Assembly (NCBI RefSeq): GCF_013391475.1
Contig: NZ_JACBAZ010000003.1
Location: forward strand, 62,001 to 126,000
Origin: Oceaniferula marina
GTDB lineage: Bacteria; Verrucomicrobiota; Verrucomicrobiia; Verrucomicrobiales; Akkermansiaceae
DNA: 64,000 nt
Reading direction: 5' to 3'
Under the pieces are notes generated by a model, which saw nothing but the letters and a program-made list of their open reading frames with translations, was not told the DNA's origin and ran no database searches. Below are positions 3,832-19,314 of this stretch, piece by piece. Made by a program: the position numbers and the translations under genes. Every line of letters starts with the position of its first letter. Positions within the stretch are counted from its first letter, which is position 1.

Positions 3832-3926
3832 TCATTCTCACTGGAGGTCGACCAATTGCAGATTGGCCTGGATCGGTATCCCATCCAAAATCAGAGCTTA
3901 TCTCAGCAAATCATCACAAACATGAT

Positions 3927-4089: not shown

Positions 4090-5331
4090 ATGCAATCAAT
4101 GAAGCACACTATCCTTTTCATCCTTTTAATTGTCTTCAATCCCGTTGCCCTCATAGCAAACGAAGCCTTGCCCTCTGATTACAAATTCATAGAAAACGGC
4201 AAAGCCATCAAAATCAATCAATGTGGGAAATTTTTCGGTAAAATTACGGAGACACAAAATACACTCATCTACAAAAGAGGAGTTAGCTCCTGCGCTCTAA
4301 TCGGCGGAAGACATCTCAATGGTGGATCTTACCGTATCACGGCAGAGCTGAAACAAGACTGTTCAGCTAGAATGTTTGTGGGAGGATCCTACGTCAAAGG
4401 CTTTATGGTCAACTACGGGAACTTTATCCAGTTTCACGAAGGGCTGATCAGTAGTAAGGGCTCGTTTAAATTCAAATCTTTCGAGATTTCCGGCGATGTT
4501 ACTCTAGAAATTACAAGTGATCGCCGCGAAGCTCAGCTTCTGGTGAATGGCAAAAAAATAGCAACGAGCAATGACCCTGATGTGCTTAAAGGTGGCTATT
4601 TTGGTATTACTCCTGTCGGCAAAGAAGAGGTCAAACTTGTCAACTTCAAGCTCCAGGCCACATCAAGTGCTGACACCCTACCTCAGGCATACCGCCCAAT
4701 GAATAGACTTCATCAATCCTACTGGACTGAGGTCTATGAAAACACCTCTAAAGCAGAACCCTGTGACGTTCTTTTTCTTGGGGATTCCATAACAGATGCT
4801 TTTGACGGTACTTGCAGCTTTACCAAAGACCCTAAACGTCTAGGAACAGCTTCCTGGGAGCGCCTTTCTAAGGACCGAGTAATCGTTAACGCAGGCATTG
4901 GCAGCGACCGCACACAGCATTTGCTCTGGCGCGTCAAGAAGATGCCTCTTGAGGTCATGAAGCCGAAAAACATCGTCTTGCTGATTGGCATCAATAATCT
5001 AGGTAGTGGGCACCACCCTGACGATGTCGCTGAAGGTATTCGTCAAATTGTTCACGAACTTGAAAAACGTAGCCCAGAGAGCCAAATTATCGTTCATGGC
5101 GTCTTCCCTCTACGTAGGACTAAAGACGTCACTACAAACAAAAACCGACTCATCGTTAATCAGAAACTTGCTGAAATGAAGTGGGGAAAAAATGTTGAAC
5201 TGATGAACCTTGATACGGTCATGCTAGACGACAAGGGCTTACTCAAAGATGGATACTCCTACGACGGTTGTCATCTCTCCGAGACTGGCTTTAGAGTATG
5301 GGAGGAAGCTATTTCCAAAGAATTAAACTAA
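4090..5331 (+). CDS. Secreted SGNH/GDSL hydrolase with N-terminal beta-sandwich
   Basis: 413 residues (404 if the ATG at 4117 is ignored and a start at 4099 is used instead of 4090, i.e. about 410). A signal peptide (KHTILFILLIVFNPVALIANE) leads the protein. Residues ~30-190 form a lectin-like beta domain resembling the DUF1080 fold. The esterase domain starts near 225 with block I LFLGDSITD (Ser233), followed by NAGIGSDRTQH, block III IGINN (Gly300/Asn302) and block V DGCHLS (Asp392, His395). All SGNH catalytic positions are therefore present. It likely removes acyl groups, such as acetyl esters, from a glycan or sialoside; the exact ester is unknown. A sialidase-like gene starts 33 bp downstream, probably in the same transcript. 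A homologous hydrolase without the N-terminal domain is at 40574-41329. Confidence 0.8.
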   Translation: MQSMKHTILFILLIVFNPVALIANEALPSDYKFIENGKAIKINQCGKFFGKITETQNTLIYKRGVSSCALIGGRHLNGGSYRITAELKQDCSARMFVGGSYVKGFMVNYGNFIQFHEGLISSKGSFKFKSFEISGDVTLEITSDRREAQLLVNGKKIATSNDPDVLKGGYFGITPVGKEEVKLVNFKLQATSSADTLPQAYRPMNRLHQSYWTEVYENTSKAEPCDVLFLGDSITDAFDGTCSFTKDPKRLGTASWERLSKDRVIVNAGIGSDRTQHLLWRVKKMPLEVMKPKNIVLLIGINNLGSGHHPDDVAEGIRQIVHELEKRSPESQIIVHGVFPLRRTKDVTTNKNRLIVNQKLAEMKWGKNVELMNLDTVMLDDKGLLKDGYSYDGCHLSETGFRVWEEAISKELN

Positions 5332-5364
5332 GCTCCCTATTATCAATCACACTTAAATAAAGAC

Positions 5365-6462
5365 ATGAAAACAATCATCTTCAGCTTACTTGCCACCCTC
5401 ACTGTATTTTCAACGGTAACCGCCGAAACAATCACTCTCACCGAGAGCAACCCTAGAATCTGGCAAAGCACACGCGATGGAAAACCCGACCAATTTGGGG
5501 TAAGCCAATACAGAATTCCTCACCTCTTCGTTAAACCGAATGGTGATATTGTCGCCTGCTGCGTAGGGCGTCTTTCAAAACCCAGTGACCATGGAATCTC
5601 GGCCTGTTTTTTCGCATTATCCAAAGACCAAGGTAAAACATGGAAAAAGTTCAATGCTCCCTACGTGAATTGGAAAGAAAACAAACCACCCAAAGGAGTT
5701 CTACCTTTGACCAAAATAACCAACGAGGTCAATGTAGTATGGAGCCAAATTGAGAAAAAATACATCTGCATCTACATGCACGAACTACGCGTTTACGTTT
5801 CAAAAAGCCCCGATCTTGAAAAGTGGTCTGACCCACAAAAACTCGACATCGCAAAATTGGCCGATGGCTCGACCGCCAACCTCTGGCAATGCCCAACCTC
5901 CATGCTTATCGACCAAAAAACAGGAGAAGTGGGCTTTGCCATCTGTGGCATCAATAACAAACGTTGGGTCGTCCGCCTCATTTGGACCAAAGATTTTAAA
6001 ACATTCGAAGAATCTCCTAACATTCCAAAAGGGAGCTGCAATGAAACCAACTTTGTCAAAATCAAAGACGGTCGATATTTCGTATCTAGTCGTGCAGGGA
6101 AAAAGCGCATTAACTGGTACTACGACCGAGTTAACAAAAAATGGAGTATCCCTCACCCGGTTACAGTACCCCACCGCGGATCGTGCCAAGCTGATGTTAT
6201 CTACGACAGCAACGGCCACCTGTTTCTGTCCATGCCAAGTAATCCAGGATCAAGACTGAACGGATGTATTTATCGCAGTAAAGACCAAGGGAAAACATGG
6301 GAGAATATCAAACTCCTCAATGAAGGTTATTTCGGCTATTCCTCACTGGTTATTCTAAACGATGGGTCCAAGGCTATTCTCAGTGAACAAGAACGCTGTG
6401 ACGGACCAAGTAAAGGAACCAGCCTTCATTTTAAGAACCTAGGTAAGCTTCAGGGTAAGTGA
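5365..6462 (+). CDS. Secreted sialidase-like (BNR/Asp-box) protein, GH33-like
   Basis: 365 residues with signal peptide MKTIIFSLLATLTVFSTVTA. The sialidase signature is nearly complete. A YRIP motif carries Arg50. Two Asp-boxes read SKDQGKTW, at 86-93 and 305-312. Candidate arginines for the carboxylate triad are Arg243 (SSRAG) and Arg297 (GSRLNG). GYFGYSSL supplies a candidate nucleophile Tyr325, and Glu341 follows in the position of the partner acid. Family knowledge suggests exo-sialidase or a related six-bladed propeller glycosidase. It lies 33 bp downstream of the SGNH esterase and ends at a strong terminator, so the two are probably co-transcribed. O-deacetylation followed by release of sialic acid would be a sensible joint role, but this is inference. 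Confidence 0.75.
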   Translation: MKTIIFSLLATLTVFSTVTAETITLTESNPRIWQSTRDGKPDQFGVSQYRIPHLFVKPNGDIVACCVGRLSKPSDHGISACFFALSKDQGKTWKKFNAPYVNWKENKPPKGVLPLTKITNEVNVVWSQIEKKYICIYMHELRVYVSKSPDLEKWSDPQKLDIAKLADGSTANLWQCPTSMLIDQKTGEVGFAICGINNKRWVVRLIWTKDFKTFEESPNIPKGSCNETNFVKIKDGRYFVSSRAGKKRINWYYDRVNKKWSIPHPVTVPHRGSCQADVIYDSNGHLFLSMPSNPGSRLNGCIYRSKDQGKTWENIKLLNEGYFGYSSLVILNDGSKAILSEQERCDGPSKGTSLHFKNLGKLQGK

Positions 6463-6497
6463 TTGAGCCTCGATTGGTTTAAGCTCACCATTTTTTT

Positions 6498-6530
6498 AGC
6501 CCGTTCCCTTTGATGTGGAGCGGGCTTTTT
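6498..6530 (+). terminator. Rho-independent terminator after the sialidase-like gene
   Basis: AGCCCGTTCC pairs with GGAGCGGGCT across a 9-nt loop (one G-T pair) and is followed by TTTT. It closes the glycan locus. Confidence 0.85.
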
Positions 6531-6862
6531 CGTCAAAAGTTATTCTTGCCTTGCCGAAACTTCAGCCATTTCAAGAGTCCAAGCACTTGTAGCTCGGCAA
6601 AAAACACCATTCAAACATCTGTCCAACCGGTATAGTTAGAATCTTGATCACAACCCAGATTCAGGATGGCAGATAAATGACAGTTAGGACTATCCATGTC
6701 CAGAATCATTTATGAAAACTCGGGATCTTTCGCCACGCAATCCACAGCCATTCTGGGTTATATAATGATGAATAGCTCCGTTTATCCGGGAGCTGTTTAA
6801 CCCGTCACGGAGATTCTGTGATGGTTTTTTTATTAACCATAACCAGAAAGGAACCAACTACC
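6531..6862. other. Intergenic region, left border of the foreign island
   Basis: About 330 bp without a gene. A small hairpin (AGCTCC, 9-nt loop, GGAGCT) lies near 6776-6796, and a second dyad TCAC/GTGA follows near 6805-6822, just before the first island gene. No tRNA fragment or direct repeat marking an attachment site was found here. Confidence 0.5.
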
Positions 6863-7360
6863 ATGGCAGTTAAACTAATTGCAAACTACAGTAAACGACT
6901 CGGACTCCCGGGCTATTCGTCACACCAGTTCAGTGTCTCTGTAGAAACTGAGCTGAACACCACCGATGATATAGCCTATGAAGCCGAGCGCCTGTACCAC
7001 AACCTCCAGACGAACGTCGACGGCCAGATCCAGCAAACAGGATTTGTGCCGCCACAAGACTACGGCATGGAGACCCCGGCCACACAGGCCGCACCACCCA
7101 ACGTCCTGCCAATAGTATCAGAGGCTCATTGGCAATGTTCCCCGAAGCAACAGGAGCTTATCCTGAAGCTGATCTCGGAGAACTCGCTGGATAAGGGTGA
7201 AATCGAACAGCAAAGCCGCCAGCGATTCCGAAAGGGGGTCAAGCAACTCAACAAACTGGAAGCATCCGGCCTGATTGAGGAGCTCTTCGAGATGACTGGT
7301 GCCAATAACAACAGGAGCCGAAAACCACGGCGTAATGCCTATGGAAAGGGGGGAGCATGA
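6863..7360 (+). CDS. Island protein of unknown function, first gene of plus operon
   Basis: 165 residues from the ATG at 6863, with GAAAGG 8-17 bp upstream. An earlier in-frame ATG (6818) only adds a stretch rich in start-like codons. I do not recognise a family with certainty. The N-terminal half (KLIANYSKRLGLPGYSSHQF) reads as a compact alpha/beta domain. The central ~60-95 stretch is proline- and glutamine-rich. The C-terminal ~100-165 is helical and basic (RQRFRKGVKQLNKLEASG, then NRSRKPRRN), suggesting nucleic-acid contact. Its stop overlaps the start of the RecB-like nuclease (ATGA), so the two are translationally coupled. A role in DNA metabolism of the island is plausible by context only. 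Confidence 0.7.
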   Translation: MAVKLIANYSKRLGLPGYSSHQFSVSVETELNTTDDIAYEAERLYHNLQTNVDGQIQQTGFVPPQDYGMETPATQAAPPNVLPIVSEAHWQCSPKQQELILKLISENSLDKGEIEQQSRQRFRKGVKQLNKLEASGLIEELFEMTGANNNRSRKPRRNAYGKGGA

Positions 7361-8181
7361 TTGCTGTAGCTGATCCCCCCACCAAGGTACCGGATAAGGT
7401 TCACGCCTTACCTGACCACATCAGCCCGACAGCGGCTAAAGATTACCTGGGCTGCTCGCTCAGGTTTTTCTTTGGCAGGGTACTGGCAATACCACAAGCC
7501 ACCAGTCCAGCACTACACCTTGGCAAGTGCGTGCATGCGGCATTGCAACATTATCACCTCGCTGTCTGGCGTGGTGGAGATGCTTCGCCAGAAGCCGTGA
7601 CCCAAGCCTACGAAGACATCTTCATGACCATGGAGAGAGACGAAGGACCAGTGTCATGGAAGGATGAGAAGGCACGGAACAAAGCGCATGCGGATGGATT
7701 AAGAGTGGTTGCCGCCTACCTCGATTCACCCGGGGTATTAAAGGAATCACCCAAGGCTGTCGAAGTCTTCCTGCGTGAAGAGATCGATGGCTTATCGGTA
7801 CCGCTCACTGGTGCGATTGACCTTGTTCGCCAGGATCTGGTACCTGTGGATTTTAAAACATCCGCAAGTAAACCAGATCCGGCGACGGCCGCATTTGATC
7901 ATGAGCTGCAGCTTGTCTGTTACCAACTCATGATTGAGAAGGCGACGGGTAAAACACCACCCGCACTTGACCTGTTGTTTCTGGTGAAGACCAAGACGCC
8001 CCAGGTCATCCCTGTCTCCATTGCTCCTGCCGACGAACATCGAAAGCAGCGGGCAGTGAAGATGCTGGAAACAGCCGTGCAAGGAATTGCTGAGGAGCGG
8101 TTCCATCCCCAACCCGGGATGCATTGCAGCTGGTGCTCGTTTCGTAACGAGTGTGGCAAGTGGAAGGGAGATGCTGCATGA
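7357..8181 (+). CDS. PD-(D/E)XK nuclease of the RecB/Cas4 type with Fe-S cysteines
   Basis: 274 residues. The nuclease core is visible: GAIDLV (Asp155), VPVDFKTS (Asp165-x-Lys167) and the QxxxY-type motif QLVCYQ (Gln185, Tyr189). One N-terminal cysteine (LGCSLRFFFG, Cys33) and three near the C-terminus (CSWCSFRNEC: Cys257, 260, 266) match the four-Cys Fe-S cluster of Cas4 and AddB nucleases. Expected activity is single-strand exonuclease or end processing, probably in recombination or replication of the island. There are no cas genes or CRISPR repeats in the window, so this is not a CRISPR adaptation gene. It overlaps both neighbours by ATGA, marking a coupled operon. Confidence 0.85.
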   Translation: MIAVADPPTKVPDKVHALPDHISPTAAKDYLGCSLRFFFGRVLAIPQATSPALHLGKCVHAALQHYHLAVWRGGDASPEAVTQAYEDIFMTMERDEGPVSWKDEKARNKAHADGLRVVAAYLDSPGVLKESPKAVEVFLREEIDGLSVPLTGAIDLVRQDLVPVDFKTSASKPDPATAAFDHELQLVCYQLMIEKATGKTPPALDLLFLVKTKTPQVIPVSIAPADEHRKQRAVKMLETAVQGIAEERFHPQPGMHCSWCSFRNECGKWKGDAA

Positions 8182-8378
8182 GGTTTCTACCCTACACCCT
8201 ACTGCCGTTGCTGCTCGTCAGTTGTGGCAGCAGCGCCAAAAGCCATACAACAAAACCAGTGGATCTGAAGCCCGTGGGTAATGCCGTGGAGTTCTTCAGC
8301 ATCTGCATGGTTGTGGCCGTGATCGTGGTCGCGTTGACAGCGATCATTCTAGCTGCCCGGGGAGGAGACGACCGATGA
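8178..8378 (+). CDS. Small lipoprotein with one membrane segment
   Basis: 66 residues from the ATG at 8178, which overlaps the stop of the nuclease by 4 nt. It begins MRFLPYTLLPLLLVSCGSS, a lipoprotein signal with lipobox LVSC. The rest contains a hydrophobic segment (AVIVVALTAIILAA) ending in charged residues. No family recognised. The neighbour at 8375 is another tiny membrane protein, and both overlap by ATGA. Together they could form a two-component envelope pair, such as an entry-exclusion or spanin-like pair, but this is speculation from topology. Confidence 0.6.
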   Translation: MRFLPYTLLPLLLVSCGSSAKSHTTKPVDLKPVGNAVEFFSICMVVAVIVVALTAIILAARGGDDR

Positions 8379-8533
8379 ACGCTGAATCATCATTTGATAT
8401 GGTGATTTGGGTCGTGATAGGAACGCTTATCTTCCTCGCCCTGAGTTCACGGATACCGCTGCTGCTACTGGCTGTGGCGTTTATCTGTTTGCCCTGTGCA
8501 TGGCTTTATCTGAAGTCACGCGCCCGAAAATAA
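8375..8533 (+). CDS. Tiny two-helix membrane protein
   Basis: 52 residues: an N-terminal MNAESSFDM, a hydrophobic segment (WVVIGTLIFLAL), a short turn, then a second segment (LLLLAVAFICLPCAWLYL) and a basic tail KSRARK. The ATG overlaps the stop of the lipoprotein gene (ATGA), which supports real translation. A terminator follows 20 nt later. Confidence 0.55.
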   Translation: MNAESSFDMVIWVVIGTLIFLALSSRIPLLLLAVAFICLPCAWLYLKSRARK

Positions 8534-8555
8534 CAACCCCCACCCCCAAACCATT

Positions 8556-8590
8556 GGCCGGTTCCTCATCCCGAGGTTCCGGCCATTTTT
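8556..8590 (+). terminator. Rho-independent terminator after the small membrane genes
   Basis: GGCCGGTTCCTC and GAGGTTCCGGCC form a stem with a small internal mismatch, followed by ATTTTT. Confidence 0.8.
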
Positions 8591-8623
8591 ATTAATACCC
8601 AACATTAGAAAGAACCCATAATT

Positions 8624-9466
8624 ATGAATAACGTAATTGCATTAAGACAAGGAAACCTCGTGCAGGAAGCGGCACGTCCCATCCCGTTTGAGGTAGTCGA
8701 GAACCCACCTGAGTTAAACACTGATGTGCGCCCCAAAGGGTTGCTTTGTCACTGTGGTGCCCAGGTCGTTGACCGACAGGATCTCTTCGAGGTCATCACA
8801 CCCAACGGTACTGACACATGGTATCCGATACCACATCGCAACCTACTTGCCGAGGTTGAGAACCAACTGCGTGAAACAGGCTTCATCATACAAGGTGAAA
8901 CCCATGCACTGACACACGACGGGGCCCGATACTTCGGTGTCATCCAAGTGAGCTTGCCTACCCGGAATGAAGGTGACTTCAACTGGGTGGTGGGCTTGCG
9001 GAACTCGCACGATAAGTCGTTACCAGCAGGTCTCGTAGCCGGGACACAAGTCTTGGTTTGCGATAACTTGTGCTTTAACGGCGAGGTCAAACTGAGTCGT
9101 AAACACACGCGTTTTGCCATGCGTGATTTGCGGCAACTGACGGCACGTGCTGTAGGTCAGCTTGGTGACAAGTTCCGGGACCTGGATCAGAGAGTTGCTC
9201 GCTATAAGCAGCACTACCTTCCTGATAGATCTGCCCATGATCTCGTCATCCGGGCAGTTGATTGTGGAGCAGTCACCACAAGTCAGGTTCCTGCCGTGCT
9301 TCAGGAATGGCGCAAACCCCAGCATGAAGCATTCCTTCCTCGGAATGGTTGGTCACTGTTTAACGCCTTTACCGAGGTTTATAAAACAGTGAACCCGCAG
9401 ACCGCAGTGAAACGTGGTCAGGCGCTGCATGGGCTGTTCGATAGTCAGGTGGCACTCGCCAGCTAG
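8624..9466 (+). CDS. DUF932 phage/plasmid-like protein
   Basis: 280 residues. The segment VVGLRNSHDKSLPAGLVAG followed by VLVCDNLCFNGE and LSRKHT is the signature of DUF932, a family found mostly on phages and plasmids and of unclear biochemical role. N-terminal residues include GLLCHCGAQVVDR. The gene has its own transcription unit between two strong hairpin regions and is the clearest sign that this stretch is a mobile island and not core chromosome. Confidence 0.8.
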   Translation: MNNVIALRQGNLVQEAARPIPFEVVENPPELNTDVRPKGLLCHCGAQVVDRQDLFEVITPNGTDTWYPIPHRNLLAEVENQLRETGFIIQGETHALTHDGARYFGVIQVSLPTRNEGDFNWVVGLRNSHDKSLPAGLVAGTQVLVCDNLCFNGEVKLSRKHTRFAMRDLRQLTARAVGQLGDKFRDLDQRVARYKQHYLPDRSAHDLVIRAVDCGAVTTSQVPAVLQEWRKPQHEAFLPRNGWSLFNAFTEVYKTVNPQTAVKRGQALHGLFDSQVALAS

Positions 9467-9516
9467 TGAACCCGGGAGGCGTGGAAATTCTGCGCCTCCC
9501 ATAACCACATACCCAT

Positions 9517-10242
9517 ATGAACCTACAAAAAATAGAACATGAAGTGAGCTTCGATCAGCTCGCGGGATTCGACAACTACCGTCAGTGGATCGAACCACTG
9601 GTGCCGTTGCTCGAATCCGGTGATCCGCTCGCACCCCGTGGCGCATTACTCGCCGGTATGCCCGGGACCGGGAAGGCAAGTTGTGTGCTGGCAACAGCCA
9701 AGTTGATTGGCAGACCAGTAATTCGTTACCATCCGAAAGGGACCAAGGTCTCAGCTATCATCAGTGAGCTACCCGACGAACCCATCATCTTGTGGCTTGA
9801 TGAACCGGATGAAAGCTGCATCGAACTACTACGATTCCTGGCATTACAACCAGATATCGGGGACAAGGTGCTGGTGATGACCACGACAAGTAAACCACAC
9901 ATGCTGCCAGCGACGTTCACGGGTGCCGCGATCTTCGATCGAATCTGGCATCTTGATCTACCTGATGTCAGTGCCCGGGCGTTCCTATGGGACTGTCTCA
10001 TAGGATGCGTGGGCGGGAATCCGGGGAAATATGACAACGTGAAATTGGCTCAGGTCTCGGCACTGTTCACGCCCGCCGAGATCGAGGCCGTCGTGAGGCA
10101 AGCTCATGCCGGGGTCGAGAAGCCTCCGAGTGAGAAAAAGATACTTGCCGAAATCGTACGGAAAACGCCTTGTGCTGCGTTGCAGGACGAGGAGACTGCC
10201 AGCGTCCGATATTGGGCACGGCGTACTGCTGAGAGCGTGTGA
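9517..10242 (+). CDS. AAA-type ATPase
   Basis: 241 residues. Walker A is GMPGTGKA (47-54) and Walker B is ILWLDEPDE (~91-99). The N-terminal segment FDQLAGFDNYRQWIEPLVPL resembles Ycf46/spastin-like AAA proteins of phages and plasmids. There is no clear second domain. It follows the DUF932 gene by 50 bp in the same direction and is closed by a terminator, making it the last gene of the plus-strand operon. Confidence 0.75.
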   Translation: MNLQKIEHEVSFDQLAGFDNYRQWIEPLVPLLESGDPLAPRGALLAGMPGTGKASCVLATAKLIGRPVIRYHPKGTKVSAIISELPDEPIILWLDEPDESCIELLRFLALQPDIGDKVLVMTTTSKPHMLPATFTGAAIFDRIWHLDLPDVSARAFLWDCLIGCVGGNPGKYDNVKLAQVSALFTPAEIEAVVRQAHAGVEKPPSEKKILAEIVRKTPCAALQDEETASVRYWARRTAESV

Positions 10243-10273
10243 GGGCCATTACGGGTACACTGGCGAATTAGAG

Positions 10274-10316
10274 GCCCGCACTCCCTGTCACCGGGGAGTG
10301 TGGGCGCTCCTTTTTT
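10274..10316 (+). terminator. Terminator between the convergent island operons
   Basis: GCCCGCACTCCC (10274-10285) pairs with GGGAGTGTGGGC (10294-10305) with one mismatch, followed by a TTTTTT run from 10311. Confidence 0.85.
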
Positions 10317-10376
10317 ACTTACCGGGTCATTTGTATTTCTTACTCCGCATAATGGGATCAATTCGGACTGAAACCA

Positions 10377-12137
10377 TCACAGCAAGGCTTCAAGTTCGTC
10401 CAGCATTTCCTCCACCTGCTTCCACGACCTCTTCTTCCGAGTCGCCTCCTTGAGGCGGGAGAACAGCTGGATCCGTTGTTCGGATCTTGATCTGGGTTTT
10501 TCGGGAAGCCCATCAGGATGTAAAATATCAAAGACAACTGTTTTCACTTCCTTCGCGGAGGGTTGGTCACCACCAGCCTGTTCGACGGCAGTTCCCCATG
10601 CACTCACCTGTTTTTCAGGATCTGGCAACTGCAGAAGTGGTCGCACCTGAGCTTCGTTCACCGGAAAAACGTCTCCAATTGGTGACGTTTTGAATGTCTC
10701 CATAAAACTTGCAGCACCAATAAGCCGGTGAGCGTGTGCCCGGGACATGCCTGCAACCGACTGGCAATATGCGTTCCAACTTTTGTGACCTGCCGCCCTC
10801 CAAAGCTTGCCCGATTTGATTACGGAAAGCGCCTGCCCTAAATCCCAGAATGCCTGCACACCCTTGACAACGATCTTATGCTGTTGCCTGAACTCGACCT
10901 CTTCTTCCTTGGTGATTGAGGAGCCTATCGATTTTCCCTTGGACTTCTTCTCTACTGGTCTCGGACTGCTGGACTTTATCATCTCGTCTTTCCTGTGGTC
11001 ATGGAAGGCCTGGGGGAACTCACGCACGCGCAGGGATTCATCCCACTCGGCCCAGTCGCCTCCGTGACCATCCTTTAGTCTGATAAGCTCCCCGTCACGG
11101 GTGGGCTTCGCACCCAGTTGTTTGAGAAAAAAGGCAACTCCGCTTTTTTCGCAATGCCGGCGCATTTCATCAACCCACTCTAGCTTGAACGGGCGAGTCA
11201 GATTCCCGGAACCGGACTCACCACCGAGTATGACCCAGTCGATCCCCTCAAGGTCGAGTTGCTCCGGTGGTATGCGCTCCCAGAGCGGTTCAATGGAAAG
11301 TCCTTTGATAGATGCCTTGACCTTCTTCAAATCAGCCAGACGTTTCAGACTGGTTCGGTCCGGGCCTGTCAGAGTGGTCATGGCGCAGACATTCGGAGGG
11401 AAGCCCCCTATTTCCTCAGCGAACTTGGCCATGATACTTGGACACTTGGTCAGCCATAACCAGAGATGACGTTCACCATCTTCGGATTGAATGGCAGGCA
11501 TGAGATCGGCTTTCAGAAAGGGAAAATCGGCAACCCTGCTGAGTGCATCACCCATGTCGGAAACGAAGATCATCCGGGGCAATCGATGTTTCCATGAGGT
11601 CTTCTTGTTGTATGTGCCAAGCAAATCCTTCTTCCCGGCTATGGTCGCTGCCCGCCCTCCAAAAGAGGTAATTTCCTCAAAGACAGGAGCGTAACCTGCC
11701 TTGACCTGCCGGGGTTTGACTTGGTTCCCCCTGAGACCCTCACGGTCGAGTATGTTAGCCCCCTTATTGAGATGCAGGATCGCCGCATAGCAGGTGATGG
11801 ATTTCCGGATGGCGTCTTTAGCCTCGTCCGCAACGCTCTTGCCGTGTTGTTTCTCGACACTATCCAGGAACCTCTCGCGCAAGTGCCATATATTGCTAGT
11901 GGTGACCTTCTGAGTGTGCCCGGGGTTCGGGTTCTCTGAATGAAGGAAGACATCATCAATAAGCTGCTTGTAGATCGCCTTGATCTTCTTCTCAGTGGTA
12001 TCGGCCCCCGCATGATTCATTGCATCGGCAATCGTTTTGAGGACTTCGGCTGGCTTCGGGAACAGCTCGCAGCCATGACAGCCCATGATCGGATTTACGG
12101 TACTGTCGCACCATTGTATTTTTGTTTTATCAGACAT
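10377..12137 (-). CDS. DUF5131 (phage Gp37/Gp68) domain fused to a DNA-binding-type C-terminal domain
   Basis: 586 residues. The first ~360 match the phage Gp37/Gp68 family (DUF5131): KIQWCDSTVNPIMGCHGCEL at the N-terminus, FVSDMGD, LWLWLTKCP, NVCAMTTL, LSIEPLW, WVILGGESG and FFLKQLG. The cysteine cluster near residues 10-24 is reduced compared with the usual CxxxC-type arrangement. After a basic linker (VEKKSKGKSIGSS) the C-terminal ~190 residues contain an HTH-like stretch (SWNAYCQSVAGMSRAHAHRL) and FPVNEAQVRPLLQLPDPEKQ, a pattern known from plasmid ParB/replication accessory proteins. It is the last gene of the minus-strand operon. The biochemical role of DUF5131 is not settled; a tie to phage or plasmid DNA is the safe statement. 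Confidence 0.75.
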   Translation of the reverse strand: MSDKTKIQWCDSTVNPIMGCHGCELFPKPAEVLKTIADAMNHAGADTTEKKIKAIYKQLIDDVFLHSENPNPGHTQKVTTSNIWHLRERFLDSVEKQHGKSVADEAKDAIRKSITCYAAILHLNKGANILDREGLRGNQVKPRQVKAGYAPVFEEITSFGGRAATIAGKKDLLGTYNKKTSWKHRLPRMIFVSDMGDALSRVADFPFLKADLMPAIQSEDGERHLWLWLTKCPSIMAKFAEEIGGFPPNVCAMTTLTGPDRTSLKRLADLKKVKASIKGLSIEPLWERIPPEQLDLEGIDWVILGGESGSGNLTRPFKLEWVDEMRRHCEKSGVAFFLKQLGAKPTRDGELIRLKDGHGGDWAEWDESLRVREFPQAFHDHRKDEMIKSSSPRPVEKKSKGKSIGSSITKEEEVEFRQQHKIVVKGVQAFWDLGQALSVIKSGKLWRAAGHKSWNAYCQSVAGMSRAHAHRLIGAASFMETFKTSPIGDVFPVNEAQVRPLLQLPDPEKQVSAWGTAVEQAGGDQPSAKEVKTVVFDILHPDGLPEKPRSRSEQRIQLFSRLKEATRKKRSWKQVEEMLDELEALL

Positions 12138-12163
12138 TTGTGTTAAATTTATTAGTGTTAGAA

Positions 12164-13066
12164 TTAACTACTCCAATCATTCCCTTCCCATTCCGACAAC
12201 GGCGCTGGCGACGTGCTATGGTCCACACCGAATAGGGCACACTCATTTAGCGTTTCGGTTTGATGCCGAGCAGTGGCATTGATTATGTCCATGTGCGTCA
12301 CACCCCATATTTCCAGACACTTGTTCTCGTCCATAACTAATGCCGGGTGCCGAAGAATCACGTGCCTAGCAAACTCGGTGAGGAACCGGTTACGGCACTG
12401 ATCCCGGATCTCTATCCTGTTGGGACGATTGCCTTCATACCAAGACTGGGCTTGAGGAACCAGCAGATGGTTATCGTCGAATAGCACCGTCGTGGAAATG
12501 GGACTATTTCGATCATGGGTAAGTCGATCAAAATAAAGTTTCTCCCAATTCAATCTATCCACTTCATCCTGACGTAGCTCACTTTGTTTTTCAGAGTTCC
12601 TCAGTGTCCCAAAATTCCCTGTCACCAAATCCCTAGTACCCTGATCAGGATACCTCTGAATGCAGCACCTGTAATTGTGCTCTTTATTGCCCACCGCTTC
12701 CAGGACATTGTGAATGCCTGTGGCCGTCAGGCGTTCATCAATACACGCACAATACGCGAGCTGCAAGATCAAGCTCGATGGTATCTTGCCATTACGATGT
12801 TCACGGACAAACTTTCTACGGCTTTTGTCGTCCCATTCTGATGACCCTGCAGCAGCCTCCATATACCGTGCTATGGGAGCTTGCTCGCAGAATGCTTTAA
12901 CAGGTTCTCTTCTACATGTTCCCGGGACAAGCGTCTCAAGGAGGTATGCTGACTGGTCAATCACCTCGGCCACGGACCCTCGGTCGAAGCTGAGATCTTG
13001 GGCGTCACCAATTGGTGACGTAACCAATGTATCTGGTGATGTCTGAGTAGTTTTTATATCATTCAT
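12164..13066 (-). CDS. Island protein of unknown function
   Basis: 300 residues, no family recognised. The protein is soluble, without signal peptide or membrane segment, with several cysteines in the centre (YCACIDERL, YRCCIQRYP) and a helical C-terminal half (RFLTEFARHVILRHPALVM). It lies 4 bp after the Rep-like gene and 26 bp before the DUF5131 gene, so it belongs to the same transcript. Its early codons contain a perfect 18-bp palindrome that is nearly repeated in the DUF5131 gene, giving both proteins the peptide TSPIGD. Confidence 0.6.
   Translation of the reverse strand: MNDIKTTQTSPDTLVTSPIGDAQDLSFDRGSVAEVIDQSAYLLETLVPGTCRREPVKAFCEQAPIARYMEAAAGSSEWDDKSRRKFVREHRNGKIPSSLILQLAYCACIDERLTATGIHNVLEAVGNKEHNYRCCIQRYPDQGTRDLVTGNFGTLRNSEKQSELRQDEVDRLNWEKLYFDRLTHDRNSPISTTVLFDDNHLLVPQAQSWYEGNRPNRIEIRDQCRNRFLTEFARHVILRHPALVMDENKCLEIWGVTHMDIINATARHQTETLNECALFGVDHSTSPAPLSEWEGNDWSS
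13003..13020. promoter_or_regulatory. Perfect 18-bp palindrome CGTCACCAATTGGTGACG inside a coding region
   Basis: Lies within the early codons of the 12164-13066 gene. A one-mismatch copy (CGTCTCCAATTGGTGACG) lies near 10669-10686 in the DUF5131 gene. A partition- or replication-type binding site is possible. Confidence 0.4.
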
Positions 13067-13070
13067 TTTC

Positions 13071-14129
13071 TTATTTTATTTGAGGATTTGTTTTTATTTT
13101 ATCAGCTCTCTCAATGCCCGTGGCTGTCTTGATTAGATCAATGGGCTCAGGCATAGGATCGTTGGGCACCAGATCCCTAAGGGATAGCTCCCGCATATGG
13201 AGCACTGCCATAGCTTTCTTTATCCGGGAGGCCCGGTCAGGGGACACCTTACTCAAATACAGGTCCACAGGATGAGCCCCATTCATCAGGAGATCTGGAT
13301 GCTGCTTCATTGCCGCAAGCATCTGGACGAAGTTGTCATCAACAAGAGGTACCTTACCAGTGTCGTCCGGGTCGAGGCTATAGAGGATTTTGAAAAAACA
13401 CTCGACCCAGTTATCATAAACTAACTCAGTTACATTGTCTCCATCCCCTATGTGATCCTTAAGCTTATCCGCCGAGAGTTTCAGCTCAATACGGGTCCAC
13501 TTCTCACGGAAGCTCTTACCAGCCATCTGCTGACCTTTGTCGTAGATGTGAAGGCATAGAGGAGGGCGCTTTGCTGCACCAAACTGAATACTTTCACCCG
13601 ACCTTAAGAGAGGGGCTTTATGTAAGCCTGGGAGGTTCCTGTCTTTGACGAGCAACTCTAGTTGGCTATATGGAGTTGCTATTACACCGCCAAACTCTAC
13701 CGACGTGAACTTGCAGGTCCTAGGCCCATTACTAATCAGATCTAGTGCGTCCCACATGACATCCAAAGCCTTATCGATCTGCTCTTGGCTACAAACGATG
13801 ATGCCATTGTGATCATTGCCAGTGAGTAACCTAGAAAGGTTGGCTTGGACACTGCTGATTGTATTACCAGTTATGCCGATACTCATCCCGGTGGTCTTAT
13901 CATACCATCGTTCAGAAATGTCAGTTCCACACCTGTTCTCCGATTGGGTATTGGATAACCTTTCCCACGAAGTTTGACCAGACCTGAGGTCACTGGGACT
14001 TGGCAGGTTGATTTTTCTATGCGGTGGGGATTCCCCCCCGCGCCCCCCCTTATCTTTCTCGATATTTGAGGAGGAGGGTTTCATATATCGGCTATCCGGC
14101 TTAATGCGAATTGTGTCTGGTCCTAGCAT
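13071..14129 (-). CDS. Putative replication initiation protein (Rep_trans/RstA-like)
   Basis: 352 residues. The central part holds CLHIYDKGQQ (about residue 200) and WTRIELKLSADKL about 25 residues later. That spacing of a YDK motif and an R-x-E-x-(K/R) strand is typical of replication initiation factors of rolling-circle plasmids and filamentous phages (Rep_trans, RstA). Before it comes SIGITGNTISSVQANLSRLL and later a helical tail (DRASRIKKAMAVLHMRELSL). The first ~60 residues are basic and low in complexity. I see no clear catalytic-tyrosine context, so the assignment is tentative; a phage-type replication accessory protein is the alternative. It is the second gene of a minus-strand operon. 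Confidence 0.45.
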   Translation of the reverse strand: MLGPDTIRIKPDSRYMKPSSSNIEKDKGGRGGESPPHRKINLPSPSDLRSGQTSWERLSNTQSENRCGTDISERWYDKTTGMSIGITGNTISSVQANLSRLLTGNDHNGIIVCSQEQIDKALDVMWDALDLISNGPRTCKFTSVEFGGVIATPYSQLELLVKDRNLPGLHKAPLLRSGESIQFGAAKRPPLCLHIYDKGQQMAGKSFREKWTRIELKLSADKLKDHIGDGDNVTELVYDNWVECFFKILYSLDPDDTGKVPLVDDNFVQMLAAMKQHPDLLMNGAHPVDLYLSKVSPDRASRIKKAMAVLHMRELSLRDLVPNDPMPEPIDLIKTATGIERADKIKTNPQIK

Positions 14130-14252
14130 TGGTTCGGTACGTTTGGGGTTATATTGACCTTAGGTAAGGCACATGACGACCCGATGCTAGCGCCCATAGA
14201 CTTCGCACCGATTGATTTCTTAATAATAATCATATATTTATTGGGTTATAGA

Positions 14253-14279
14253 GGAGCCCCACTACAGAAGTGGGGCTCC
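14253..14279 (-). terminator. Strong hairpin after the acidic island gene
   Basis: GGAGCCCCAC and GTGGGGCTCC form a perfect 10-bp stem with a 7-nt loop, 12 nt downstream of the 14291 stop on the minus strand. The T run is weak. Confidence 0.7.
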
Positions 14280-14290
14280 CCTGGTTTCTC

Positions 14291-15151
14291 TTAAGCAGCA
14301 TTACCGCCACCACCGCCTTCCTCCAGACCTCCGAGTTTCCTCATTAGTCCCGACACTTCCCGAAGTCGTGATGCAAAGACCTTGGCTTCAGACTCGCTAT
14401 AGTCAGAGGGATAGACTGCACTGACGTAGTCCATGAACGCATCATCCGAGCTCAGGTAACCCTGGTCGGACTCCTCTCGTATTCTACTCGTCAGGATCTC
14501 GACTAACTCCATGCTAATACCGTCAAACTCAAACAACTCTTCGAAGCTTGCATCAGGCGCACACTCCATGACCATCCAGAGTTTAAGCAGCAAGTGGGCA
14601 GGCAAAGGCTTCCCCTCAACCACTGAACCCGGATCCTTCACTTCCTTCCAGATGACCTCCAAAAGAGGTTGAGGTATAAGGGCTGCTGCCTGAATAAATT
14701 CATACAGCATCCGCTCACAGTTAAGGGCAACTAGGTTCGCTATACATCGGCAAAAGCCGCACTCGAACGAGATCTCCTCAAGAATCACATATACTGCGGA
14801 TTCGATCGCACCCCAATTATCCAGCAGTTCTTCAAGACAACTAGGAACTATCACCCCGAGAGGGTGTGGCATAGTATCGCTGGGGTGATACAATATGGCG
14901 GTATCATTTTCATGCGGTATATTGCTATAACCTTCGATCACCTTCCCAGGGTCAAAGTCGTTATATTTTTGACGTATAACTGCTATCGCTTTTGGCAATG
15001 CGCTATTTATTTCTCCCTTGGAGAATTTGTCCCGAACTCGTTGAGTCAAGGATTCTGGCAAAGGCCCATATAAACACTCCAAGCTGGAGGTTATTTCATT
15101 GAACAGGATCTCATCCTTGTTCTTAATATTTGTATTAGTTCTAATAATCAT
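14291..15151 (-). CDS. Acidic island protein of unknown function
   Basis: 286 residues, rich in Glu, Asp and Leu, and ending in GGLEEGGGGGNAA. No family recognised. It is mostly helical, with a cysteine cluster (ECGFCRCIANLVALNC) near the middle that might bind metal. It is transcribed leftwards, separated from the Rep-like gene by a hairpin and about 160 bp, so it may have its own promoter in the AT-rich region to its right. Confidence 0.6.
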   Translation of the reverse strand: MIIRTNTNIKNKDEILFNEITSSLECLYGPLPESLTQRVRDKFSKGEINSALPKAIAVIRQKYNDFDPGKVIEGYSNIPHENDTAILYHPSDTMPHPLGVIVPSCLEELLDNWGAIESAVYVILEEISFECGFCRCIANLVALNCERMLYEFIQAAALIPQPLLEVIWKEVKDPGSVVEGKPLPAHLLLKLWMVMECAPDASFEELFEFDGISMELVEILTSRIREESDQGYLSSDDAFMDYVSAVYPSDYSESEAKVFASRLREVSGLMRKLGGLEEGGGGGNAA

Positions 15152-15785
15152 TATTATTTTTTAGTATTGTTTTGAGAGCACTCATCTCCCGATTTTATAT
15201 AGAGTGTATTATTATGCGGCATCTTGCCGCTTTGTCATTGTCGGGCTCTCAGCCTCAACAAAAATCTAACCACCCCATAAAAACTGGGGGCACCCAACGT
15301 TCCTCATTTATTGATGGTGACGTCAGGCTGGTTAAATTATTTTTATTTCTGCATGAGGTTTATTGACCTCGCAGTTGCACTGATTTTTTTCAGTGCTCCC
15401 AAATAACAATTTCCGCATTCTGCGAATTTCTAGTAAATGGGGTGACGGTCGTGCACTTCTAGTTTTTTGTGCTTCCGCAAAAATGTTGGCACTCTGCCTA
15501 ACTTCTCTGCTTGTCAGGCCGTTGTCACGTTAGCCTGCAGACGAACGATTGCCTTTTAACACCGTCGAATCAAGCTGTATTTTTACCCTCTGCAACACTT
15601 TTTTGTTAGACACCAATCGTTTACAAAACACAATAAACAAGAACGAACAGCATGAACACATTTCACGTTTAGATCATGTGCTGATTACAAGAGTAAAAAA
15701 ATATTCAAATTCTTCACAAAGACCTCCGGACGGCCAAAAAATGCAGATTATAACCATTACTTCTCTTTCTTCCGTTCGAAACTCT
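15152..15785. other. AT-rich non-coding region of the island
   Basis: No supported gene. Several small hairpins are visible, e.g. CACTGA/TCAGTG near 15377-15394. A dyad TCTGCCTAAC / GTTAG...GCAGA at 15493-15541 loosely resembles an integron attC but has the wrong core base in the right arm. The region probably holds the promoter for the leftward gene at 15151. Confidence 0.45.
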
Positions 15786-16092
15786 AATCAAGTAGGCAGC
15801 GGGATCGCTCCCGCCACCTCTCACACCACCGGACGTACGGCTCCGTATCACGGCGGTTCAAAACAACCCTATCTTTTCAGCCTATACCACAGCATAAACT
15901 GCAACTTTGTTTTGCTATATTGATCCAGTGTTGATGCCTCGTATGCGATTTCTGTTCGTCAGGGCAGTGTTTTGCTTCCAGCTTCCTTCAGCCAACACCT
16001 CGCGATGTTAACCTTGCCTTCCGCTAGCGGTTCTCTCTGCCGAGCCCGCAGGGGACTTTAACCCCCAAGTCAGTGCGCCCTACCGGGCACAC
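15786..16092 (-). ncRNA. ORF-less, truncated group II intron remnant
   Basis: Read on the minus strand it starts GTGTGCCCGGTAGGGCGCAC (group II 5' consensus GUGYG). It continues with domain I landmarks of bacterial introns (GGGGGTTAAAGTCCCC, GGCTCGGCAGAGAGAACCG, CTGACGAACAGAAATCGCAT). It then jumps to a domain V-like hairpin (GAACCGCCGTGATACGGAGC, CGTACGTCCGGTGGTGTGAG), ending near CCTACTTGATT. Only about 307 nt remain. Domains II-III and the reverse transcriptase/maturase of a normal 2-2.5 kb intron are missing, so it should not be mobile on its own. Plus-strand ORFs over this stretch are artefacts. Confidence 0.75.
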
Positions 16093-16101
16093 CCAAAAAT
16101 T

Positions 16102-16131
16102 AATGCACCCGGATATCTTTCCGGGTGCATT
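16102..16131 (-). terminator. Intrinsic terminator for the orphan excisionase-like gene
   Basis: AATGCACCCGG and CCGGGTGCATT form a perfect 11-bp stem. On the minus strand it is followed by AATTTTTGGG, 36 nt downstream of the 16167 stop. Confidence 0.85.
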
Positions 16132-16166
16132 GTTGTACAAAACGTCCTTGGTTTGAATAAGCTTAA

Positions 16167-16376
16167 CTATTCAGGGAGACCTTCAATATAGTCTGAAATA
16201 CTGTCGTAGTTGATGAGGCGAGTTGCTGCTCGTTGTCCAGGCTCCTTCAGGGACTTGTTCACGATCACACCTTTTTTCATCAGAGCATACAAAGTAGTTC
16301 TTCCTATACCAAAAATCTCACGCACCTCTGCTGGACGAATCCATTCTCGGCGCATGGAAAAACCATTGTTTTTCAT
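16167..16376 (-). CDS. Excisionase-like helix-turn-helix protein (orphan)
   Basis: About 69 residues from MKNNGFSMRREWIRP; a longer frame to 16439 has a hydrophobic leader that does not fit. The core AEVREIFGIGRTTLYALMKKG is a MerR/excisionase-type HTH (HTH_17), followed by ATRLINYDSISDYIEGLP. It is clearly paralogous to the excisionase-like gene inside the satellite at 18976-19200 (shared EW(I/L)R, FG(I/V)GR, LY.L, TRLI.YDS.SDYIE). It lies just outside the left att site, with no integrase beside it. It is probably left over from an earlier element at the same tRNA locus. Confidence 0.75.
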   Translation of the reverse strand: MKNNGFSMRREWIRPAEVREIFGIGRTTLYALMKKGVIVNKSLKEPGQRAATRLINYDSISDYIEGLPE

Positions 16377-16439
16377 TTGATATTTTAGTATTCTGATTAT
16401 CCCCTGCCAGTAAATGACAAGAGTTATTGAGAGCACCAT

Positions 16440-16860
16440 AGATAGGCTCTCACTATATTGTTTCCCTTTTCGGGACGGCCAATACTTACCGTTTACAAAT
16501 GACTACCGAGCATTCTTTTGCTATACTCATCATTCTCAATGCTGAGCGATCAACAGCGCCATTCACACCGTCAATTTAACAGCAGACTATCATAACAGCT
16601 ACATGACGCAAGTAAAAAATCATCATGCACACTATAAACATTACATATTGTTACTACTCATGGTGACGACACGCAAGCCCCGGAAGCACCTATCACCACT
16701 AATCACTCAACTCAAAAATGGCCTGCACACAAACTATGATATAGCCCCAAAGGACCGCCTATCCGGATACAAAATGAACAGTAAAATCAGAACAAACAGA
16801 ATCCAATTTATTACCAGTATGTTAGCAGTCAACCAATCTCCAGACAACCAGACACGAAAA
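16440..16860. other. Intergenic region left of the satellite
   Basis: AT-rich, about 420 bp. One plus-strand reading frame (16603-16884) has no recognisable domain and runs through the terminator hairpin, so I do not call it a gene. It should contain the promoter of the leftward excisionase-like gene. Confidence 0.4.
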
Positions 16861-16881
16861 AACCCTTATAAAATAAGGGTT
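16861..16881 (-). terminator. Original terminator of the tRNA-Cys gene, separated by integration
   Basis: AACCCTTAT and ATAAGGGTT form a 9-bp stem just beyond the duplicated tRNA 3' end, with T-rich sequence on the minus strand. The same arrangement, with a different stem, follows the intact tRNA at 34577-34599. Confidence 0.7.
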
Positions 16882-16889
16882 TAAAACAA

Positions 16890-16919
16890 TGGAGGCGGGA
16901 GCGGGAATCGAACCCGCGA
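16890..16919 (-). repeat. Left attachment site: 30-nt copy of the tRNA-Cys 3' end
   Basis: TGGAGGCGGGAGCGGGAATC plus AACCCGCGA is identical to 34607-34636, the 3' end (CCA, acceptor, T arm) of the intact tRNA-Cys. The match stops at the next base. Together these are the direct repeats bounding the satellite. Confidence 0.95.
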
Positions 16920-17000
16920 TTCGTTATCGGGGATATTATAGACAATATAGAACGTTTTTATAGGGTTTGAGGACACAATAAACACTATGAAACTTGACAG

Positions 17001-17024
17001 ACTGCTTCCCTATAGCTTCCCTAT
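17001..17024 (+). promoter_or_regulatory. Integrase arm-site-like tandem (GCTTCCCTAT x2), left end
   Basis: GCTTCCCTAT-A-GCTTCCCTAT lies 82 bp inside the left att repeat and just upstream of the chosen integrase start. A near copy (22 nt, one mismatch: ACTGCTTCCYTATAGCTTCC) is at 34525-34546, 60 bp inside the right end. Its position and repetition suggest integrase arm binding. Confidence 0.5.
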
Positions 17025-17031
17025 TACTACC

Positions 17032-18270
17032 ATGGCAAGCATCTACAAACCTAGTGATAAAAAGCATTACTATACCTCCTTCCATGTCCCAACGGTGCAC
17101 GGAACTATGAAAAAGTTAACCAGATCGACAGGGGAAACGAATAGGCGAATTGCCCAAAATGCCGCAAATGCCATGGAAAAAGTGGCTCTGGCAGAGGCGG
17201 GGGCAGGAGAAGACAAAGGAAGCAGAATCGCCGCCATCGTGGCACAAGTGGCAGAAGAGGCGCGCAAAGGAATCCTCAACGCAGTAAGTGCCAGAAAAGC
17301 GGTCTCTGAAATCCTCAAAATATCAACGGGGGAAGATATGCCCGAATATACGATTCGAACATGGACTGCGGAATGGCTGAAAAGAAAGGAGGGCAAAACA
17401 GAATCTACCATGCGAGCTTACAGAACTCATACAGCTCATTTCCTCAAGTGGCTCGAAGATAGAGCCGATAACACACTAGAGAGCCTCACCGTAGCTGACA
17501 TGAGAAAATACCGACAATGGCTACTCAACGGAGCCGGAGGGAAGAACAAAGCCAGTAACACTACCACAAAGCAAAAAATGAAGGTGGTTTCATCCATCTA
17601 CATTAAGGCCATGGCCGAGGGGCTCACCAACTTTAATCCGACAGCCGCCCTGGAGCCACTTGAAGAAACCGAAAAACTAGAACGCAAGCCGTTCAGCCCA
17701 AAAGAAGTCGATTTACTTACCCACGCAGCACCATCTGAAGAATGGAAAGGTATCATCATTATGGGAGCATTCACGGGCTTACGCCTGACCGATTGTGCAC
17801 TACTCACCTGGCAAGATATTAAACTCAACAAAGGCGTGATCGTCACAACACCCAGAAAAACCAAACGCAAAAAAACGATTGTAACTATTCCCATTCACCC
17901 CACCCTTTTGGAGTTCCTACAAAACCAGCCTACGCCGATCGATTCAACAACCCACGTATTCCCGACTCTGGCAAAGTCCACAGGAGCCGGTCGAAATGGC
18001 TTGAGTGTTCAATTCACCAACATCATGAAAAAAGCAGGGGTTAGTCGCGGCAAATCGATAAACACTGGAGGGCGTACTATGTATGAACGAAGCTTCCACA
18101 GCCTCAGGCATACACTGACAAGTTGGCTTGCCGATTCGAACGTTTCCCCAGAAATCAGAATGCAGATTCTCGGGCACAAGTCCGAAGATGTTCACGCTAT
18201 CTACACGCATCTAGACGACGTCACGCTCAAAACGGCCATGAATAGCATCCCCGAACTTAAAGCAAATTAA
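17032..18270 (+). CDS. Tyrosine recombinase / integrase
   Basis: 412 residues from the ATG at 17032 (MASIYKPSDKK). The earlier ATG at 16987 would place the arm-site-like repeat inside the gene and adds a poor leader. Residues ~100-200 form the SAM-like core-binding domain (TIRTWTAEWLKRKEGKTES, then LKWLEDRADNTLES). The catalytic domain has FTGLRLTDCALLTW (Arg I), SFHSLRHTLTSWL (His-x-x-Arg) and ILGHKSEDVHAIYTHLD (His and nucleophile Tyr), so it looks active. It should catalyse insertion into and excision from the tRNA-Cys 3' end. It is transcribed away from the left att site. Confidence 0.92.
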   Translation: MASIYKPSDKKHYYTSFHVPTVHGTMKKLTRSTGETNRRIAQNAANAMEKVALAEAGAGEDKGSRIAAIVAQVAEEARKGILNAVSARKAVSEILKISTGEDMPEYTIRTWTAEWLKRKEGKTESTMRAYRTHTAHFLKWLEDRADNTLESLTVADMRKYRQWLLNGAGGKNKASNTTTKQKMKVVSSIYIKAMAEGLTNFNPTAALEPLEETEKLERKPFSPKEVDLLTHAAPSEEWKGIIIMGAFTGLRLTDCALLTWQDIKLNKGVIVTTPRKTKRKKTIVTIPIHPTLLEFLQNQPTPIDSTTHVFPTLAKSTGAGRNGLSVQFTNIMKKAGVSRGKSINTGGRTMYERSFHSLRHTLTSWLADSNVSPEIRMQILGHKSEDVHAIYTHLDDVTLKTAMNSIPELKAN

Positions 18271-18274
18271 ATCA

Positions 18275-18892
18275 ATGGGATTAGATCACACCTGTCCTGA
18301 GGAAACTCCCTCTCAAGCATGGAAAGCACTGCGTGCAATGCCTCGTCTAACTGCTATTTCTACACTCCGTTACGAACATTACTGGCCTGCTTTTCTTCCG
18401 CACATTGTTCCAAATGATAAAAAGCGCGAGAACTTTGCCGAATCTTTTTTTTCAGAAGAATCTTCAAAAAAAAGGAATAATCATATCTTCGGGGCCATCA
18501 ATGTCAGAAGAAAAAAAGCTCTTCACGTTAAATTGATGGCAGAACTTGCAGCTCAAGGGCCAGTATACCATGAGTTATATGATGATATAGGTAAGGTGAT
18601 TACATGTGCTATATCTGAGGGAGATCACATTCTATTTGGAGATCTACAAAAAATACTTAAAGACGGAGCTATGGAGGACTATAAATCCTCAGCATCAGAC
18701 AGATGGAGACTATTCAGCATATATGTTCTCGATCATGGGAAGTTGCCGACTAAAAAAGAAACCAAAACTATCTGGAAAAAATATGGTTCCCCGCAGAGGT
18801 CACCCTCGACTGGAAAGAAAGAACTAATTGTCAGTGACAAACAATCCAACAAATGGCGATCTGAGCTTGGTCTACAAGGACTCCCCATCTAA
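18275..18892 (+). CDS. Satellite protein of unknown function
   Basis: 205 residues, 4 bp after the integrase stop and thus likely co-transcribed. No family recognised. It has basic stretches (VRRKKALHVKLMAEL, SPSTGKKELIV) and a helical pattern (KVITCAISEGDHILFGDLQK). No signal peptide or membrane segment. A regulator or DNA-binding role would suit this position, but no clear HTH is seen. Confidence 0.6.
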   Translation: MGLDHTCPEETPSQAWKALRAMPRLTAISTLRYEHYWPAFLPHIVPNDKKRENFAESFFSEESSKKRNNHIFGAINVRRKKALHVKLMAELAAQGPVYHELYDDIGKVITCAISEGDHILFGDLQKILKDGAMEDYKSSASDRWRLFSIYVLDHGKLPTKKETKTIWKKYGSPQRSPSTGKKELIVSDKQSNKWRSELGLQGLPI

Positions 18893-18975
18893 CGTAGATT
18901 TTTGAGGGAGTCCCAAATAAACAATAATGTGTCATATAATCGATGTCGAACGAAACAACTGGCCGACATCAAACC

Positions 18976-19200: not shown

Positions 19201-19314
19201 CGACTACGCGCCACCAACCATGGGCCGGTGACGCGCGTATGATCGTTTGGAAGACGATTCATATTACCTCATTTATCCCATTCAGCAAGCGCGTATTCGG
19301 CAACGAATACAAAA

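Follow-up and report, generated by a model that had tools for sequence, protein, structure and literature searches.

The question raised by this locus is how a block of phage- and plasmid-type genes, with no recombinase gene strictly within it, entered the genome of Oceaniferula marina, of the order Verrucomicrobiales. The window analysed here is a stretch of 64,000 nucleotides (contig C3, positions 62001-126000) from a draft genome of 5.07 Mb in 88 contigs, and coordinates given without a contig or locus are those of the window. The block occupies positions 6863-16439 and consists of two converging operons with a GC (guanine plus cytosine) content of 0.47-0.54, between AT-rich flanks of lower value. 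An earlier note, made from the sequence alone, had described these operons, with their DUF932, DUF5131 and Rep-like genes, as a foreign island; its coordinates and gene list are right, as Pfam matches indicate (weakly for the Rep-like gene), and the foreign origin is confirmed by base composition and by distribution. Indeed, the block is not conserved at this locus across the genus, being absent from all 13 other genomes of the genus except for decayed DUF932 scraps in one of them. Very probably it represents the backbone at the tRNA-proximal end of a larger element, here called element 1, of about 87 kb plus an insertion sequence (IS), which was inserted by a tyrosine recombinase in the 3' end of a tRNA-Cys gene.

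The right border of element 1 is marked by an exact 31-bp direct repeat, present at 16889-16919 and at 34606-34636, which corresponds to the 3' end of tRNA-Cys(gca) (34607-34681, minus strand; ARAGORN and Rfam), the one tRNA-Cys locus found in the genome. The copy at 16889-16919 is the attachment (att) site at the right end of element 1 and, at the same time, at the left end of a second element; it is preceded by a terminator hairpin (AAACCCTTATTTTATAAGGGTTT, 16850-16888) of a type that accompanies the tRNA where sites are occupied. A complete tRNA-Cys element (element 2) fills the interval 16889-34636, lying in tandem behind element 1, with the tRNA gene as its target and right att. It starts with a tyrosine integrase (16987-18270, plus strand; PF00589, E-value 2.1e-17), 59% identical to the integrase of element 1, and the rest (18275-33264) encodes an AlpA-like helix-turn-helix (HTH) protein, a CHC2-zinc primase-like protein, DUF3987, an NsnAB-like pair and a type I restriction-modification system. 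The sequence thus shows integration at the tRNA-Cys 3' end with a 31-bp core, and two elements, their integrases related, that have accumulated in tandem. The NsnA/NsnB-like pair is recognised by PADLOC with E-values of 7e-141 and 3e-115. In a congener (G013) a like element, with a 35-bp att and an integrase 60% identical, occupies the same tRNA-Cys; there, a partial second att copy (L077:6482-6505) is located 220 bp from the full att, possibly the scar of an earlier tandem insertion.

The left half of element 1 was found on another contig. A genome search with the 24-bp core of the tRNA-Cys att, from exact matches to 3 mismatches, revealed a third exact copy at C13:8345-8368, within the attL of element 1 (C13:8344-8374). 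About 115 bp from this core lies integrase 1 (C13:7001-8230; PF00589, E-value 6.8e-14), followed by a gene for a protein of 465 amino acids and then by genes for proteins of 460 and 444 amino acids; the 460-amino-acid product is 57% identical to a 463-amino-acid protein that precedes g1, the first gene of the block, in a related element on contig C2. The sequence beyond the C13 att has the composition of the host, with a tetranucleotide correlation of 0.91. Moreover, the sequence GGATGAGAACC is found about 80 bp past tRNA-Cys or att in four relatives (G009, G005, G006 and G013, in the last one past the left att) and on C13; it is missing to the left of 16889, and has 2 matches in the 317 kb of this genome searched. 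Host composition and the placement of GGATGAGAACC as in the relatives indicate that C13 holds the native downstream flank of tRNA-Cys. The dapL gene was dropped as a synteny guide to the native left flank, being near tRNA-Cys in G012 only. The view that the locus has no att repeats is thus contradicted by the repeat in the window and by the third core copy, and the statement that it has no integrase holds strictly inside 6863-16439, while the integrase of element 1 is on C13 beside its att; both impressions arose because that interval is too narrow. The integrase at 16987-18270 belongs to element 2 and not to the element of the block.

C13 ends in an IS, so that a direct continuity of its genes with g1 was dropped, and it is this IS that links it to C3. 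The first 140 bases of C13 (C13:1-140) are identical to the end of C9 (C9:83448) in reverse complement, and C3:1-140 is identical to C12:1-140; both stretches terminate with one and the same inverted repeat (TTTTTGTCGTGT..TGTG) and represent the opposite ends of an insertion sequence present in two copies, which breaks four contig ends (C13:1, C9:83448, C3:1 and C12:1) and whose body is on none of the contigs searched. The flanks on C13 and C3 have in common the 9-bp target duplication AACCGAGAC, those on C9 and C12 the 9-bp duplication ACCAAGGCT, and neither duplication matches when the flanks are paired in the alternative way. Since C13 and C3 both break at the ends of one IS and their flanks carry a perfect 9-bp duplication, the two contigs are adjacent, and a normal target duplication between them also disfavours a later rearrangement at this point. 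Element 1 spans from C13:8374 through the IS to C3:78919, corresponding to 87,014 bases plus the IS. Its order would be, on the left, the native tRNA-Cys downstream flank, attL, integrase 1, the three genes behind it and the IS; on the right, a cargo from C3:140 to about 68,500, the backbone operons (6756-16439), the shared att, element 2 and finally tRNA-Cys. A decayed or integrase-less island, as had been proposed, is not what is found. The suggestion that the block had hitch-hiked with a tRNA-Cys element was correct in tying it to such an element, but the block itself is the end of an element of that kind.

The foreign composition extends well to the left of the block. Over C3:1-68,500, which includes positions 1-6500 of the window, GC content is 0.44-0.47 and the tetranucleotide correlation to the core is 0.47-0.63, versus 0.87-0.95 in host stretches. 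The right end of this cargo (1-6462, plus strand; GC 0.442, correlation 0.47), which continues leftward over C3:140-62000, encodes by Pfam a large secreted hydrolase-like protein (1199-3787), an SGNH/GDSL esterase (4090-5331) and a BNR/sialidase-like protein (5365-6462). Pfam matches over the whole cargo reveal functions for sugar uptake and use, namely an L-arabinose isomerase, an FGGY kinase, a class II aldolase-family protein (araD-like by position), an SSS transporter and a LacI regulator, together with hydrolases comprising several GH43 enzymes, GH27/GH36-type alpha-galactosidases, a sulfatase, and SASA and GDSL esterases; an aldose epimerase, sialidase-like BNR proteins and ThuA/DUF7133 cytochrome proteins are also present. 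The arabinose isomerase gene (araA) was found in none of 35 relatives.

Cargo and backbone meet at 6530-6755, in a single-copy sequence at which no element ends. From about 6756 onward, just upstream of g1, the sequence resembles the C2 element; no repeats of 6440-6840 occur elsewhere in the genome, and no degenerate att exists near 6550-6860 within 11 mismatches of 31. The stretch 6550-6860 is an internal seam between cargo and backbone and not an insertion boundary. Of the two boundaries previously expected for the island, near 6550-6860 and 16440-16880, the right border is real and lies at the att (16889-16919), while on the left foreign DNA continues.

A sister element in the same genome offers a model for this organisation. 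On contig C2 the same backbone is found with 77% identity for g1, 91% for DUF932, 64% for the AAA protein and 27% for Rep, and it ends at a tRNA-Arg gene; a 43-bp copy of the 3' part of this tRNA, with two mismatches, is located 31 kb leftward and adjoins an integrase. On these grounds the C2 element is complete, covering 31 kb at C2:84040-115190 (L073:4040 to L041:17187), with the integrase at one end, DISARM genes in the middle (DrmMII, E-value 2e-95; DrmB, E-value 5e-80) and, on the tRNA side, the backbone including Rep. This layout leads one to expect, by analogy, that the block of the window closes a larger element on its tRNA side, with the integrase at a great distance to the left. Beside the intact tRNA-Arg, the 5' half of this gene and its flank are present in three tandem copies with a spacing of 192 bp (L041:17236-17646). 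On contig C7 (L057:16174-17282) an orphan DUF932 gene, 89% identical, is found with remnants of the AAA gene, a relic of a third copy of the backbone.

Other readings of the same data have to be weighed. The seam is sharp in GC (0.44 to 0.54), single-copy and devoid of IS or att, as would be expected if a small element (6756-16888) at tRNA-Cys simply lay next to an unrelated AT-rich region, with the integrase and att of C13 deriving from a different insertion. This is unlikely, since by the perfect 9-bp duplication of the C13-IS-C3 junction the left 68.5 kb fall between the att on C13 and that of the window, the C13 att has the native flank of the single tRNA-Cys locus found, and in the sister element on C2 cargo likewise lies to one side of this backbone. 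The abrupt change in composition, in a draft of 88 contigs, could also be produced by an assembly chimera that falsely joined the sugar genes to the backbone at 6530-6755; but the junction sequence is unique in the genome, so that there was no repeat to mislead the assembler, and the other end of the sugar region is an IS with a duplication matching the C13 half, an independent link unexpected under a chimera, which makes this explanation very improbable. The original proposal, an integrated rolling-circle plasmid or replicon resembling a single-stranded DNA (ssDNA) phage that entered by Xer/dif or by plasmid co-integration, draws on the Rep_trans-like initiator, which keeps its YxK and RxE motifs, and on the small membrane proteins of the operon. 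It is largely refuted and hardly credible: Rep has no match among 72,556 PLSDB plasmids, INPHARED phages and IMG/VR contigs, and DUF932 has only remote relatives among these plasmids (2 matches) and among the INPHARED phages, so that the block was not found on free plasmids; no coat, Zot or virion gene was detected with Pfam and PHROGs; there is no sign of Xer/dif entry, the right border being a tRNA att and not dif; and the same backbone is accompanied in C2 by a tRNA and an integrase, and in genome G040 by an adjacent integrase.

Some points weigh against the preferred reading, that of a single tRNA-Cys element of about 87 kb. Neither an excised circle nor a pair of occupied and empty strains has been observed, and element 1 could correspond to several insertions, the att sites between them having decayed. 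Being a draft, the genome may hide further pieces, and the C13-C3 junction was deduced from contig ends and not read through. Transfer genes were sought by Pfam only, on open reading frames of at least about 130 amino acids. Finally, the Rep_trans assignment is below the Pfam cut-off, the role of the protein being deduced from motifs, and its single-sequence structure model failed (predicted local distance difference test, pLDDT, 34.5).

The likely behaviour of element 1 can be outlined from its gene content. Integrase 1 would recombine attL with the middle att (or with the tRNA) to release an excised circle; the Rep_trans/MOBT-like protein might then nick this circle, leading to rolling-circle replication or to mobilisation through the conjugation machine of another element, and the exonuclease, g1, DUF932 and AAA proteins could serve to replicate or recombine the DNA once it is excised. 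Neither a conjugation pore nor a coupling protein nor a type IV secretion system (T4SS) family was recognised by Pfam among the open reading frames of the size given above, although the IS gap and the locus joins could hide genes; likewise, capsid, portal, tail, terminase and packaging-hijack genes were not found by PHROGs on the backbone or by Pfam on backbone and cargo. Because conjugation pore, coupling protein and virion genes were not recognised, element 1 is probably a mobilisable passenger, and no gene recognised in it explains transfer between cells.

The candidate initiator or relaxase of the minus-strand operon (13071-14129, 352 amino acids) matches PF02486 with an E-value of 8.7e-5 and 22.6 bits, the cut-off being 29.6. 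It contains Y196-x-K198 (motif III) and R213-x-E215; in the alignment with its relatives from C2 and G032 the YDK, the RxEL and an acidic residue (motif I) after F-x-x-V are kept in all three proteins. In the MOBT relaxase RelSt3 the residues corresponding to these motifs are required for nicking (PMC6499999). These motifs weakly suggest a role as initiator or relaxase. Inverted repeats are present near 14250-14282 and 15544-15621.

The backbone is not limited to this species. Across the genome collection, DUF932 relatives were found at 297 places, the best 80 of them in Verrucomicrobiota records. When 38 Verrucomicrobiota DUF932 loci with at least 6.5 kb upstream were examined, g1 was present at 34 and was accompanied by the exonuclease at 30, with strand and order unchanged throughout. 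In larger versions, a DNA polymerase III beta (sliding clamp)-like gene lies between exonuclease and DUF932, joined in L146 by an ATP-dependent DNA ligase (genes at L146:8292-9725, L117:11890-13356 and L146:7114-8208). In a Spartobacteria genome (L114) the core is a few kb from tRNA-Arg, an integrase and a primase, and is followed by a type I restriction system; in G040 the backbone adjoins an integrase, and no att for the tRNA-Arg copy was found within the 50 kb searched. With the chances evenly balanced, these loci would define a Verrucomicrobiota family of undescribed tRNA-integrating elements, built on a core of g1, exonuclease and DUF932, to which an AAA ATPase or sliding-clamp-like gene is often added and a Rep_trans/MOBT-like initiator sometimes, and which move interchangeable cargo (defence genes in one copy, the 68-kb sugar region in another) without conjugation or phage machinery of their own. 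Verrucomicrobiota are notable degraders of polysaccharides and sulfated glycans; to our knowledge, how they acquire the genes for glycan degradation is little documented, and a literature search found no description of such an element in this phylum. If the proposal is true, it provides a concrete vehicle with att site, integrase and two types of cargo in one genome, making the acquisition of sugar catabolism testable, and it places DUF932, a common phage and plasmid gene whose function is not known, in a fixed operon that also holds an exonuclease and replication-like genes.

Known mobile elements resemble element 1 in part. Integrative and mobilisable or conjugative elements (IMEs/ICEs) with Rep_trans/MOBT relaxases, of the ICESt3/Tn916 superfamily (PMC6499999, PMC7563843), share with it the tyrosine integrase, the direct-repeat att at a gene end and a PF02486-like protein with the Y-x-K of motif III and the acidic residue of motif IV. 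Element 1 differs in that no coupling protein or T4SS is recognised and an architecture of N-terminal HTH plus PF02486 is not shown; moreover, it belongs to a different phylum, has an additional exonuclease-DUF932 module, and its transfer is putative. Tycheposons and other tRNA-targeting cargo islands, with sizes of 4-200 kb (PMC10872708), are likewise large and have a tyrosine recombinase, a tRNA border, nutrient-gene cargo and no obvious transfer genes of their own; lineage and backbone are different, and Rep_trans-like, DUF932 and AAA genes distinguish element 1. Mobile elements of gut Bacteroidetes with polysaccharide utilisation loci (PMC6907783) also move sugar-degradation genes between relatives, but in element 1, which is from another phylum, neither a SusC/SusD pair in the cargo nor a conjugation module is recognised. 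Finally, in the DUF932/exonuclease clusters of phages (Salinibacter phages; IMG/VR contigs L069 and L070) DUF932 has the same fold (Foldseek E-value 1e-17), with 24-47% identity, whereas element 1 contains no structural or packaging genes.

As for the individual genes of the block, the plus-strand operon starts with g1 (6863-7360, 165 amino acids), the conserved partner gene of the exonuclease, which may have an ssDNA-binding or annealing role. It is followed by the PD-(D/E)XK (PDDEXK_1, Cas4-like) exonuclease (7357-8181; PF12705, E-value 4.6e-29; phrog_69, E-value 2.3e-19) and, from the list of open reading frames, by a small lipoprotein with one transmembrane stretch (8151-8378), which has equivalents at the corresponding position in the relatives on C2 and in G022, and by a membrane protein of 52 amino acids (8375-8533). 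DUF932 (8624-9466, 280 amino acids; PF06067, E-value 2e-7) and the AAA ATPase (9517-10242, 241 amino acids; PF00004, E-value 2.4e-5) complete the operon. The AlphaFold2 model of DUF932 (mean pLDDT 86) resembles the phage DUF932 models and matches no PDB structure at E-values up to 0.001; on this basis a known single-strand annealing fold was rejected, and PDB profile searches with Rep, g1 and DUF932 gave no convincing match. On the minus strand, DUF5131 (10377-12137; Gp37/Gp68-like with an extra C-terminal region; PF07505, E-value 3.2e-36; TIGR04471, partial, E-value 2.6e-8) is accompanied by a protein of 300 amino acids without match in Pfam, PHROG or NCBIfam (12164-13066), by Rep, by a protein of 286 amino acids without match in profile searches (14291-15151) and by a small HTH_17/AlpA-like DNA-binding protein (16167-16439; PF12728, E-value 8.8e-6), 45% identical by blastp to its counterpart in element 2.

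Within the block, an ORF-less (lacking an open reading frame) group II intron of about 300 bases (15787-16092, minus strand, its 5' end placed by eye) is located directly downstream of a terminator-like hairpin (16103-16130). Class C group II introns prefer sites behind hairpins of this type. Domains D1-D4 correspond to the match with Rfam RF02001 (65.9 bits, 15865-16009) and domain V/VI to the sub-threshold match with RF00029 (31.1 bits, 15787-15858).

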